From contig NZ_LJCP01000008.1 of the NCBI RefSeq assembly GCF_001399755.1, positions 124,001 to 188,000 on the forward strand: DNA of 64,000 nucleotides, given 5' to 3'. The notes under the pieces are model-generated. The model saw nothing but the letters and a program-made list of their open reading frames with translations, searched no databases and had not been told where the DNA came from. Below are positions 10,770 to 55,196 of this stretch, one piece after another. The number at the start of each line of letters is the position of its first letter. Position 1 is the stretch's first letter. Source of the stretch: Thiohalorhabdus denitrificans (GTDB taxonomy: Bacteria > Pseudomonadota > Gammaproteobacteria > Thiohalorhabdales > Thiohalorhabdaceae). Both the position numbers and the translations under genes were made by a program.

Positions 10770-10906
10770 AGGCCTAAAGGCCGACGTCGTCCGGCCCTTT
10801 TACGGCCCTTTTCGGACAGAAATCTCCCCGGCACGTCGCCGGACCCCTTCTGTCCCCCTCACATCCCTTCTCCGTCCAGAACGGCATCCGGACAAAGCCG
10901 TTAGCG

Positions 10907-10918
10907 CCCTTTACAGGG
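10907..10918. promoter_or_regulatory. Candidate activator site CCCTTTACAGGG
   Basis: A 12-bp dyad ends 57 bp before the -24 element of the sigma-54 promoter at 10976. The same 12-mer with one change is found at 51979-51990, 60 bp before the second sigma-54 promoter. It may be an enhancer-binding-protein site. The region between it and the promoter is unusually AT-rich. Confidence 0.35.
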
Positions 10919-10975: not shown

Positions 10976-10991
10976 TGGCACGGGCCTTGCC
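10976..10991 (+). promoter_or_regulatory. Sigma-54 promoter of the PEP-CTERM-like gene
   Basis: TGGCAC-GGGCC-TTGCC matches the RpoN consensus TGGCACN5TTGCW except at the last base, with GG and GC in the required spacing. The start of transcription would be near 11002, giving a leader of about 60 nt. An AT-rich stretch (10941-10974) just upstream could bend or bind IHF. Confidence 0.8.
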
Positions 10992-11062: not shown

Positions 11063-11860
11063 ATGGAAATTCCCGGCAAACAACCCGCGAAGGGCTGCCT
11101 GTTCCTGGTCCTGCCCGGTCTGCTCCTCTTTTCCGGCAGCTCCCTGGCGGAAATCTACGGCGAGGAGGCCGACCTCACCGGCACCCGCGACACCTTCGAC
11201 GTGGGCGGCCTGGAGGCGGCCAACGCGTGGAGCGATTCCGACATACTCCTCAGCTGGGAAATCACCCCGGACGGGGACAATTGGGACTACGCCTACACCT
11301 GGACCATCCCCGAAGGCGCCCGGGACATCAGCCACTTCGACCTGGACGTGACCGACGACGCCCACAACGACCCCAACGCCATCACCGACGCCAACGCCCC
11401 CTACGAGTGGGTGGACATGCTGGCGGAGGATCCGGGCGGGTCGCCGGACGGCTACGAGAACCTGGGGGTCAAGTTCGACGAGGAACGGGCCGAGTACACC
11501 TTCACCTCCAACCGTTCCCCGGTTTGGGGCGATCTCTGCCTGAAAGACGGCGGGGGCCCCGATACCTGCGGGGACCTGACGGATATGGATGCGGACGACT
11601 TCCTCACCGCGGAGGAGTACGACGGCGATACGGCCCTGGTCTGGAACACCGGGTACGGCAACCGGGACTCCGAGGAGGCGCTCCACTACATTGCCCGCCC
11701 CGACGCCATCAACGGCGGGAACGGGGGCAATGGGGGCAATGGGGGCAATGGCGGAAACGGGGATAACGGCAACGATATCCCCATCCCCGGAACCCTGGCC
11801 CTGCTGGCCGTGGGCACCCTGGGAGCCGGACTCTCCTTCCGCCGGCGCAAGGAGGGCTGA
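11063..11860 (+). CDS. Secreted PEP-CTERM-like sorting-domain protein
   Basis: 265-residue exported protein. It has a signal peptide (about 1-29, ending SSLA), then an acidic Asp/Glu/Trp-rich middle region of unknown fold. A (GGN)n linker runs at about 218-235. The C-terminal tail IPIPGTLALLAVGTLGAG is followed by FRRRKEG. That tail has the tripartite PEP-CTERM design (PxPGTLALL motif, hydrophobic helix, Arg cluster), with Ile in place of the usual Glu. Such tails are cut by an exosortase during export in exopolysaccharide producers. The start has AAGGAGG 6-7 nt upstream. A sigma-54 promoter lies 70 bp upstream and a terminator follows. No exosortase gene is in the window. The function of the middle region is not recognised. 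Confidence 0.75.
   Translation: MEIPGKQPAKGCLFLVLPGLLLFSGSSLAEIYGEEADLTGTRDTFDVGGLEAANAWSDSDILLSWEITPDGDNWDYAYTWTIPEGARDISHFDLDVTDDAHNDPNAITDANAPYEWVDMLAEDPGGSPDGYENLGVKFDEERAEYTFTSNRSPVWGDLCLKDGGGPDTCGDLTDMDADDFLTAEEYDGDTALVWNTGYGNRDSEEALHYIARPDAINGGNGGNGGNGGNGGNGDNGNDIPIPGTLALLAVGTLGAGLSFRRRKEG
11714..11767 (+). repeat. Six 9-bp in-frame repeats coding (GGN)n
   Basis: Nine-base units of the type GGNGGNAAY run in tandem, three of them identical GGGGGCAAT copies (11723-11749). They encode the Gly-Gly-Asn linker before the sorting tail. Copy number could change without breaking the frame. Confidence 0.7.
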
Positions 11861-49736: not shown

Positions 49737-51632
<1,896 letters not shown>

Positions 51633-51978
51633 GAAGCAATACCGTTGTGCAGCCAGAGAAACGGAAGGCGCCCCTCCCGGAGGCAGGGGCCGCCAGGGAG
51701 GTGCGCCGGGGAAGGCATGGTAACCGCTTTTCCCGGAATCGCCGAAGCCGGGCCGAAGCGGGGACGACCATTGTCAGAATTTACATGTCCCGCAGCGGGA
51801 GCGGCCGCCCGGAACATCTCCTGTCCATGGCGTAATAATCGGTTTTTGGAAACAAAAATAACCAGACCCACCCGGCCGCCGAACCGGACGTCGCCCACCC
51901 TCCAGGGTCCACCCTCCGGGGCATTTTTTTACAGGACGCCCGCACCAACCCACCCTCGGCGTTCCGCCGGTCCGCCTC

Positions 51979-51990
51979 CCCTTTTCAGGG
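51979..51990. promoter_or_regulatory. Candidate activator site CCCTTTTCAGGG
   Basis: This differs by one base from 10907-10918 and ends 60 bp before the -24 box of the rmlBA promoter. It is also the centre of a larger dyad (CCTCCCC/GGGGAGG), so a plain hairpin is an alternative reading. Confidence 0.35.
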
Positions 51991-52050
51991 GGAGGAGCTA
52001 GCCCTTGAGAATAGGGGATTTATCGCTCCCGCCTTGTAGGCCTCGGACCT

Positions 52051-52066
52051 TGGCACCCTTCTTGCG
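52051..52066 (+). promoter_or_regulatory. Sigma-54 promoter of rmlBA
   Basis: TGGCAC-CCTTC-TTGCG has the exact RpoN spacing and differs from consensus only at the last base. Transcription would start near 52078, about 115 nt before rmlB. It requires RpoN and an AAA+ activator; no activator gene lies in the window. Confidence 0.75.
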
Positions 52067-52193
52067 GTTCCCCCGGTAACGACCGGGACAATCGGGCCTA
52101 CGGAGCCTGTGGACCACCGAGCCCGGTCCGGCGCGCCGCCCGGATGTCCGCCCGGGCGGAGGTACATGCTCCACCAGCCGAAAGAGGCCTGAC

Positions 52194-53267
52194 ATGCGGA
52201 TCATGGTAACCGGCGGCGCGGGCTTCATCGGCTCCGCCCTCGTCCGCCAGCTGGTGACCGAGACGGACAATACCGTCATAAACGTTGACAAGCTCACCTA
52301 TGCGGGAAACCTCGAATCCCTTGCCGGGGTCCGCTTCCATCCGCGGCATACCTTCGAGCGCACGGATATCTGCGAGCCGGAGGAGGTGCGGCACCTGCTC
52401 GAAAAGCACCGCCCGGACGCCTTGATCCACCTGGCGGCGGAATCCCATGTGGACCGCTCCATCGCCGGCCCCGGGGCCTTCATCCGGACCAACATCCAGG
52501 GCACCTTCAACCTGCTGGAGGCCGCCCGGGCCCACTGGGAAGGGCTGACCGGACCGGAGCGGGAGCGCTTCCGCTTCCTGCACGTCTCCACCGACGAGGT
52601 GTTCGGCGATCTGGCGCCCGAGGATCCGCCCTTCACGGAGCACACCGCCTACACCCCGAGCTCGCCCTACTCCGCCTCCAAGGCCTCCAGCGACCACCTC
52701 GTCCAGGCCTGGCACCGCACCTACGGGCTGCCCGTTCTGCTCACCAATTGCTCCAACAACTACGGGCCCTACCAGTATCCCGAGAAGCTCATGCCCCTGG
52801 TGATCCTGAAGGCCCTGCGGGGCGATCCTCTGCCCGTCTACGGGACAGGCGAGCAGAGCCGGGACTGGCTGTACGTGGAGGACCACGCCCGTGCCCTTCG
52901 CCACATCCTGGACAGGGGGCGGCCGGGCCGGAGCTACAACATCAGCGGGGCCTGCGAGCGAACCAACCTGGAGGTGGTACACGCCCTGTGCGCCCAGCTG
53001 AACCGGTTGGCCCCGCATCCGGAATATTCCTACGAGCGCCTCATCCGGTTCGTTCCCGACCGGCCCGGCCACGACCGGCGCTACGCCCTGGACGCCACCC
53101 GGCTCTTCCAAGAGCTGGGTTGGCGTCCCGCCGAGAGCTTCGAGTCGGGCCTGGCCAAGACCGTGCGGTGGTACCTGGACCACCGGGACTGGATGGAGCG
53201 GGTTCTGCACGGCTCCCCCGCCCATTGGGCGGCCGGGGAGGCCTACGGCCGGGAGGCCACCGGCTGA
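52194..53267 (+). CDS. rmlB: dTDP-glucose 4,6-dehydratase (RmlB)
   Basis: Second step of dTDP-L-rhamnose synthesis. The 357-residue extended SDR protein has the NAD loop TGGAGFIGS (5-13), [11 protein letters not shown] near 82, the catalytic STDEVFGD near 131 (Thr-Asp-Glu), and [10 protein letters not shown] (YxxxK) near 160. It is first in rmlB-rmlA, 66 bp apart. rmlC and rmlD are not in the window. The sigma-54 promoter implies supply of sugar for an exopolysaccharide rather than a housekeeping polymer. Confidence 0.95.
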
Positions 53268-53333
53268 GGACGACCGGACCCGTTCGGCGCGAGCCGGACG
53301 GCCTCAATGCACCGAGCCGGGAGAAGCGGCACC

Positions 53334-54215
53334 ATGGAACGCAAGGGCATCATCCTGGCCGGCGGCAGCGGCACACGGCTCTTTCCGGTGACCCGTTCGG
53401 TCTCCAAGCAGCTGCTGCCGGTGTTCGACAAGCCGATGATCTACTACCCCCTGTCCACGCTGATGCTCACCGGCATCCGGGACATCCTGATCATATCCAC
53501 CCCGGAGCACACCCCCCTGTTCCGGAACCTGCTGGGCGACGGCAGCCAGTGGGGAATCCGCCTGCACTACACGGTGCAGAAGGAGCCCAACGGCCTCGCC
53601 GAGGCCTTTATGGTTGGCGAGGACTTCCTCGACGGCCATCCCAGCGCCCTGATGCTCGGGGACAACATCTTCCACGGCAACGACCTGCGCCCCATGATCC
53701 GCCGGGCCGCGGAGCAGCCCGAGGGGGCCACGGTCTTCGCCTACCCGGTAAGCGACCCGGAGCGCTACGGCGTGGTCTCCTTCGACGAGGAGGGTCGCGC
53801 GGTGAGCCTGGAAGAGAAGCCTGCGGTCCCCCGCTCCCGCTACGCGGTGACCGGCCTGTATTTCTACGACGCCGACGCCGTGGAGCTGGCCCGGGAGATC
53901 GAGCCGTCGGAGCGGGGCGAGGTGGAGATCACGGACCTCAACCGCGCCTACCTGGAACGGGACAGCCTGCGGGTGGAGGCGCTGGGGCGGGGCACCACCT
54001 GGCTGGACACGGGGACCCACGAGTCCCTCATGCGGGCCAGCACCTTCATCGAAACCCTGGAGAAGCGCCAGGGGCTCAAGGTCTGCGCCCCCGAGGAGAC
54101 CGCGTACCGCATGGGGTACATCGACGCCGAGCAGGTCCGGGAGCTGGCCCGGCCCCTGGGGAAGACGGGCTACGGTCGCTACCTCCTGGACATCGTCGAG
54201 GAGCGGATCTTCTAG
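53334..54215 (+). CDS. rmlA: Glucose-1-phosphate thymidylyltransferase (RmlA)
   Basis: Makes dTDP-glucose from glucose 1-phosphate and dTTP, the first rhamnose step. The 293-residue protein has the nucleotidyltransferase signature [17 protein letters not shown] (4-20), [15 protein letters not shown] near 24, [11 protein letters not shown] near 107 and [10 protein letters not shown] near 223. ATG 53334 gives the family N-terminus. The gene ends 24 bp from the convergent RAYT gene. Confidence 0.96.
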
Positions 54216-54239
54216 CCCGTTATCCGGCGGGGGCCAGGC

Positions 54240-55196
54240 TCAGGCCTCCTCCCCCGTGGCCTGGTGAAGGTGCTCCCGGAGGCGGTCCACCTCCTCGGCG
54301 AACCCCGGGTCGAAGGCCAGCCGGCCCCGCAGTCGCCCTACGGCGTTGCTCATGGTGGCCACGTCCCGGTTCATGCGCTCCGCCGCCTCGCTCAGGGTGG
54401 AGGCCCCGGTCTCGATGGCCAGGTAGGCCACCACCGCCCTTGCCCGGCTGGCCAGATGGCCCCGGTCGCCCGAGCGCAAGCGATCCACGGACAGGCCGAA
54501 GTATCCGGCCACGGCTGCCTCCACGGCGCTTATGCACCCCGCCAGGGGGCTCCGGGACTCCGGGGAATCGCCCTGGCGGGCCCGGAAGTCCTCACCCCCC
54601 AGGCACCCGTCCTGCGCCGCCTCCAGGGGCGACCAGGAGCGCTGGGGCTCCGCCAGGCCCTCGTCGACGAAGCGCGCGTACTCCCGCCGGGCACGCCCCG
54701 GCCGTTCCGCCAGATCCGCGAGCACCCGCTCCCGGGTCAGCCACCACACCTGCTCCTCGTCCAGGTAGGTCCGATGTCCGCTCCAGGGATAGGAGGCCGG
54801 TTCCGGGGCCAGGCCCGCGGTTGCCGGACGCGCGTGGATGTAGCGGGCCACCTCCAGGAGGTAGGCTTCCGGGTCCAGCAGCAGGGCCTTGTACCGGCCC
54901 TGGAACAAGTGGCCGGAGCGGCCGCGGTGCTTGTTCGCCCTGCGGGTATAGCGGAAGGATAGATTCTGCATGATCTTGGAGAGGGGAACCTCGTCCACCT
55001 CCAGGAGCAGGTGGAGCCGGCACGGCTCCCAACAGTAGGCGTGGATCCGGTGCCCGAAGCGGTAGATGCCCTCGCCCACCAGATCCTCCAGGTGGGCGCG
55101 CTCCCCCTCGTCGGCCACCACGGTCTGCTCCCCGTTGCCGAGAAGCGTGACGTAGTAGAACCCACCCGGAACGTGGATGCGGGGTGTCCTGGCCAT
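54240..55196 (-). CDS. RAYT-type Y1 transposase with DnaA-C-like domain
   Basis: 318 residues. The Y1/HUH domain (about 1-140) contains GGFYYVTLLGNG, HLFQGRYKALLLDPEAYLLE and RYIHARPATAGLA with the likely nucleophile Tyr119. The HUH motif reads CRLHLLLEV, so the first His is Arg60 while His62 remains. YPWSGHRTYLD follows. The C-terminal part (about 225-318, VEAAVAGYFGLSVDRLRSGD, then ASRARAVVAYLAIE) resembles DnaA domain IV, a DNA-binding helix-turn-helix. Such proteins nick REP hairpins at a GTAG-type foot, and matching hairpins lie at 5453-5563 and 49675. Loss of one metal ligand suggests reduced or lost nuclease activity. Confidence 0.8.
   Translation of the reverse strand: MARTPRIHVPGGFYYVTLLGNGEQTVVADEGERAHLEDLVGEGIYRFGHRIHAYCWEPCRLHLLLEVDEVPLSKIMQNLSFRYTRRANKHRGRSGHLFQGRYKALLLDPEAYLLEVARYIHARPATAGLAPEPASYPWSGHRTYLDEEQVWWLTRERVLADLAERPGRARREYARFVDEGLAEPQRSWSPLEAAQDGCLGGEDFRARQGDSPESRSPLAGCISAVEAAVAGYFGLSVDRLRSGDRGHLASRARAVVAYLAIETGASTLSEAAERMNRDVATMSNAVGRLRGRLAFDPGFAEEVDRLREHLHQATGEEA

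Follow-up and report, generated by a model that had tools for sequence, protein, structure and literature searches.

The window (the whole 64-kb stretch of DNA analysed here) contains a short operon of two genes, rmlB and rmlA, preceded by a long intergenic region (Table 1). The identities that an earlier note on this DNA had given to the two genes are borne out, with both products scoring above the cut-offs of their families, TIGR01181 and TIGR01207; we note that the rmlA reading frame opens at 53307, with the MERKG start at 53334. Because the next gene, for a Y1-transposase protein, lies on the opposite strand, the rmlBA unit ends after rmlA and no rmlC or rmlD follows; the search for these genes downstream that the note had advised found none in the window or within the next 18 kb. 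By the established pathway, RmlA and RmlB together yield dTDP-4-keto-6-deoxy-D-glucose.

Table 1. Features of the rmlBA locus and of the PEP-CTERM promoter region in the window.
Feature	Coordinates	Strand	Evidence
Weak PrsR-box-like site CATTGTCAGAATTTACATGT	51769..51788	+	matrix score 10.2
Conserved box ATTTTTTTACA, candidate enhancer-binding-protein site	51923..51933	+	10-nt word shared with sister species G001
Sigma-54 promoter TGGCACCCTTCTTGC, TGGCAC-CCTTC-TTGC(G)	52051..52066	+	exact match; -24 TGGCAC, -12 TTGC(G); orthologous site in G001
rmlB, dTDP-glucose 4,6-dehydratase, 357 aa	52194..53267	+	TIGR01181 479 bits, cut-off 365
rmlA, glucose-1-phosphate thymidylyltransferase	53334..54215	+	TIGR01207 485 bits, cut-off 361
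Y1 (IS200-like) transposase-domain protein	54240..55196	-	PF01797 and PF08299 over cut-off
Canonical PEP-CTERM box (PrsR-type motif 1) CGTTAGCGCCCTTTACA	10899..10915	+	60 nt before -24; spacing as in PMC1569441
Sigma-54 site TGGCACGGGCCTTGC	10976..10990	+	exact; 87 bp before PEP-CTERM gene
PEP-CTERM protein gene	11063..11860	+	TIGR02595 19.1 bits, cut-off 16

The sigma-54 site that had been claimed upstream of rmlB is an exact match to TGGCAC-N5-TTGC (52051-52065, with the last G at 52066). Sigma-54 promoters require a GG at -24 and a GC at -12 that are 10 nt apart, and the GG at 52052-52053 and the GC at 52064-52065 have this spacing (GG-N10-GC). The distance from the site to the rmlB ATG (52194), previously put at about 140 bp, is 143 bp, and the gene-free region is indeed 561 bp long, separating rmlB from a divergent ABC-F gene (minus strand, start 51632). 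There are only two exact TGGCACN5TTGC sites in the window, this one and that at 10976. Transcription of rmlB would be predicted to start near 52077, ~12 nt past the GC, which would leave about 117 nt of 5′ UTR. Scanning 51600-54400 turned up no sigma-70 consensus promoter, and no Rfam RNA, riboswitches included, was detected in 51500-54500.

The site is conserved in a sister species of the same genus (G001; a draft assembly, 99% complete), in which rmlBA is syntenic with the window, with HAD, DUF188-type, and ABC-F genes before it and a methyltransferase-like gene after it. The G001 rmlB has TGGCACCCGATTTGC at -133, a perfect site that aligns with that of the window with a positional shift of no more than 10 bp, while the remainder of the gap has diverged; the probability that 31 nt would contain an exact site by chance is about 4e-5. 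The window genome (G000) has a second rmlB, which is excluded as the orthologue of the G001 gene by synteny, although the protein identities are close (70.6 versus 67.2%). Conservation at the syntenic locus is the strongest support for the proposal of a sigma-54 promoter for rmlBA, and, judged from its sequence, the 52051 site is almost certainly a real one.

The window genome encodes one rpoN and 13 full sigma-54 activators (enhancer-binding proteins), and its 2.87 Mb contain 13 exact TGGCACN5TTGC sites, versus one for a reversed-pattern control. At least 10 of these 13 sites have the start of a gene in the right orientation no more than about 210 bp downstream, among them those before rmlB, PEP-CTERM genes, the hyp genes, a gene for a type IV pilin, and a DsrE-type gene; two sites (L013 and L017) fall within coding sequence. 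Two of the sites, L018 (C7:342233) and L019 (C7:382840), lie upstream of genes for a Tll0287-domain protein and a DsrE-like protein, with sigma-54 activator genes nearby at C7:341146 and C7:383379 respectively, and are probable local regulator-target pairs. The protein encoded downstream of the exact site at C11:285380 (L014:5083-6042) has a C-terminal IPEPGVLSLLAMGMLAFLGGFGRRFGRLRG tail and is PEP-CTERM-like, scoring below the Pfam cut-off and being missed by TIGR02595.

Sigma-54 control of rmlB is not widespread. In the class, 369 genomes were searched for the exact site pattern with the rmlB codons for GGAGFIG following within a fixed range of similar spacing; two had the arrangement, both of this genus. 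Nor was there a strong, comparably placed site at any of the about 108 other rmlB loci scanned or rescanned upstream (89 rmlB loci were scanned, and minus-strand loci were rescanned, among which L030 was not resolved); outside the genus these scans gave a single weak and distant site (L118, at -386). As a target of this known type of promoter, rmlB is new.

The other exact site in the window belongs to a described class of promoters. The PEP-CTERM box is a 17-nt motif ending in TTTACA that lies about 63 nt (32-92) upstream of a sigma-54 site (Haft 2006, PMC1569441) and for which PrsR is the presumed activator (PMC1569441); RpoN dependence has been reported for one gene with such a box, Aquincola pepA (PMC9850573). 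The site noted earlier at 10976 is upstream of a PEP-CTERM gene as stated, and has a canonical box at 60 nt. Rebuilding the motif from the DNA upstream of PEP-CTERM genes in G000 and G001 (15 regions) gave TGTCGAAAAACTTTACA, which is mostly positioned 53-74 nt upstream of the sigma-54 site. PrsK, PrsR, and PrsT are all encoded in the window genome (TIGR02916, TIGR02915, and TIGR02917, each above cut-off) and adjoin EPS genes, with EpsB_2 also confirmed. PrsR and PEP-CTERM genes are present in both G000 and G001; in a further genome, G002 (82% complete), neither these nor, at the threshold used, rmlB were found.

The proposal that rmlBA and PEP-CTERM proteins share a regulon stands only in part: PrsK, PrsR, PrsT, and the 10976 box are in place, but rmlB has no canonical PrsR box. 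The 17-nt motif 1 was not found in the interval 32-92 nt upstream of its sigma-54 site, and membership of rmlB in the PrsR regulon is for that reason unproven. The intergenic region does contain the TTTTTTTACA box, ending 117 nt upstream of the -24 element in G000 and 116 nt upstream in G001; a shared 10-nt word at the promoter's offset arose in 3 of 2000 shuffled pairs. This box includes TTTACA, the 3′ half of motif 1, with a full motif-1 matrix score of 1.2. The CATTGTCAGAATTTACATGT site is farther from the -24 element, at 265 nt (253 nt for its G001 counterpart), and we regard it as weak because the expectation for motif-1-like sites in 560 nt of intergenic DNA is about 0.125. From these matches PrsR control of rmlB is plausible and a link of rmlBA to PEP-CTERM proteins possible, and PrsR is, tentatively, our first candidate for the activator of this promoter, with another of the 13 activators about as likely.

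A genuine sigma-54 promoter that answers to one of those other activators (of NtrC or stress type, for example) and has no relation to PEP-CTERM proteins is a serious alternative, to which we would give a little less than an even chance. It accounts readily for the missing box at 32-92 nt and is in keeping with the other exact sites, which serve hyp, pilin, and DsrE-type genes and in some cases adjoin their own activator genes, but against it stand the PrsR half-motif TTTACA in the conserved box and the joint absence of PrsR, PEP-CTERM genes, and rmlB from G002, a genome that is only 82% complete.

As for the product of the operon, the earlier note had named dTDP-rhamnose, and here the evidence points elsewhere. 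The second rml set that it suggested looking for does exist in the window genome, as a complete rmlBDAC set within a Wza/Wzc exopolysaccharide cluster on contig C11, separate from rmlBA; the rmlB of that set lacks a sigma-54 site. In the G001 genome there is no rmlC (PF00908) and no rmlD (TIGR01214), an absence that is strong if, in a draft, not absolute, and only one rmlB at E values up to 1e-100. RmlC and RmlD are thus missing both at the locus and from the sister species, and in G000 are encoded only on C11. Since G001 lacks both enzymes, the standard pathway to dTDP-L-rhamnose is not available to the sigma-54-driven rmlBA there, and rhamnose is unlikely to be the conserved purpose of a promoter that G001 retains. 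One could still suppose that rmlBA, when activated through sigma-54 and PrsR, provides dTDP-L-rhamnose for an exopolysaccharide made alongside PEP-CTERM proteins, with the G000 RmlC and RmlD acting in trans from their own contig; the presence of PrsK, PrsR, PrsT, and EpsB_2 and of two weak PrsR-like sites upstream of rmlB in both species would fit. We consider this improbable, given the sister species, the absence of a canonical PrsR box at rmlB, and the fact that the G000 RmlC and RmlD are accompanied by an RmlB and RmlA of their own.

By elimination, dTDP-4-amino-4,6-dideoxyhexose is a better candidate for a product common to both species. In DesI/VioA/WecE-type pathways RmlA and RmlB act first, followed by a DegT-family 4-aminotransferase, an N-acyl or N-formyl transferase, and a GT56 (WecF family) protein. 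The two species share a cluster (G000 C9:45406-50435; G001 C5:41568-46480) that encodes a GT56 protein (PF07429, WecF family, tested on the G000 protein), an ATP-grasp protein (tested on the G001 protein), a DegT-family DesI-like aminotransferase, and a divergently oriented formyltransferase, and it is because the aminotransferase, formyltransferase, and GT56 protein are common to both that we favor this sugar. The best solved relative of the aminotransferase (G000 C9:47816-48907) is 2po3 (E 1.4e-59; the next is at 6.7e-41), which carries the table label '4-dehydrase' and which we take to be DesI; its best NCBIfam match is likewise DesI (TIGR04427), but the score of 271 bits falls short of the 650-bit cut-off, so that the substrate is not certain. 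No FdtA/QdtA-type isomerase was found. Candidate genes for the steps of the known pathways are present here, but unlike in those pathways the genes are scattered over the genome and the enzymes fall below curated family cut-offs; the shared cluster is on a different contig from rmlBA and has no sigma-54 site before it.

Several other observations concern these genes. The strongest PrsR-box-like match that we saw, TGTAGAAAAATTTTACGGTT (score 25.1; G000 C9:49027-49046, L209:1027-1046), was not part of the training set; it sits where the genes for the DesI-like aminotransferase and the formyltransferase diverge, with no accompanying sigma-54 site, and its G001 counterpart scores 12.8. G000 has just one more DegT protein, which is encoded between an oxidoreductase gene and lpxB and looks lipid-A related. 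This adjacency of a Gfo/Idh-type oxidoreductase, a DegT aminotransferase, and lpxB (G000 C5:144066-145097, L196) recurs in G001 and G002 where the contig reaches, and the first two may be a GnnA/GnnB-type amino-lipid-A pair. An 18-kb contig of G001 (C17:2438-9295, L212) carries PseB-like, PseC-like, and two NeuB-like genes of nonulosonic acid synthesis.

The explanation we favor, and think probable as a whole, is that the 52051 site is a working -24/-12 promoter that makes rmlBA transcription dependent on RpoN and an enhancer-binding protein, with the TTTTTTTACA box about 117 nt upstream as the candidate activator-binding site. RmlA and RmlB would then supply dTDP-4-keto-6-deoxy-D-glucose, and its conserved use is most likely the DesI-like 4-aminotransferase route (aminotransferase, formyltransferase, ATP-grasp protein, and GT56 protein), because G001 keeps this promoter and operon yet lacks both RmlC and RmlD; the end product is predicted to be a dTDP-4-amino-4,6-dideoxyhexose destined for a glycan of the cell surface. 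For the window species, the RmlC and RmlD encoded elsewhere could also draw on the intermediate. This arrangement is known from two species only. That the 52051 site is a chance match and an unrecognised sigma-70 promoter drives rmlBA is very improbable, for although the DNA just upstream is not AT-rich, unlike that at the 10976 promoter, we reject a chance match on the strength of the orthologous G001 site and the genome-wide excess of sites, and no sigma-70 consensus was found. A more speculative extension, which we hold to be possible at best and on present sequence evidence rather doubtful, treats the rmlB promoter as a variant PrsR promoter with its box ~117 nt upstream: PrsR and RpoN would co-induce PEP-CTERM proteins and the supply of dTDP-4-keto-6-deoxyglucose, such that a 4-amino-4,6-dideoxyhexose glycan, either an EPS unit or protein-linked, is made only during PEP-CTERM export.

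In several respects the locus resembles the PEP-CTERM box/PrsK-PrsR regulon (PMC1569441; PMC9850573), having a sigma-54 site in a long gap and an upstream box containing TTTACA, in a genome with PrsK, PrsR, PrsT, and EPS genes. It differs in that its target is a nucleotide-sugar operon rather than a PEP-CTERM gene, and in that the rmlB box is 117 rather than about 63 nt upstream and has only the TTTACA half. Sigma-54 control of the bacterial exterior has been described in general (Francke 2011, PMC3162934) and for the Desulfovibrio vulgaris regulome (PMC4641369), with sigma-54 and an enhancer-binding protein acting over surface-polymer genes as proposed here; searches of these two papers returned neither rhamnose nor dTDP. 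In Pseudomonas aeruginosa, as cited in PMC4074388, a sigma-54 promoter has been proposed for PA1131-rhlC, and a complete rmlBDAC is mainly under RhlR and sigma-S. To the extent of these citations rml transcription is regulated there too, but in the present case it is a lone rmlBA that carries a sigma-54 site of its own.

If our explanation is correct, a sigma-54 regulon of exported PEP-CTERM proteins, or of other genes of the envelope, would also take in the supply of a sugar-nucleotide precursor, and one small operon with one promoter would offer a handle on which glycan accompanies PEP-CTERM proteins. The presence of rmlBA alone should not be read as evidence for rhamnose.
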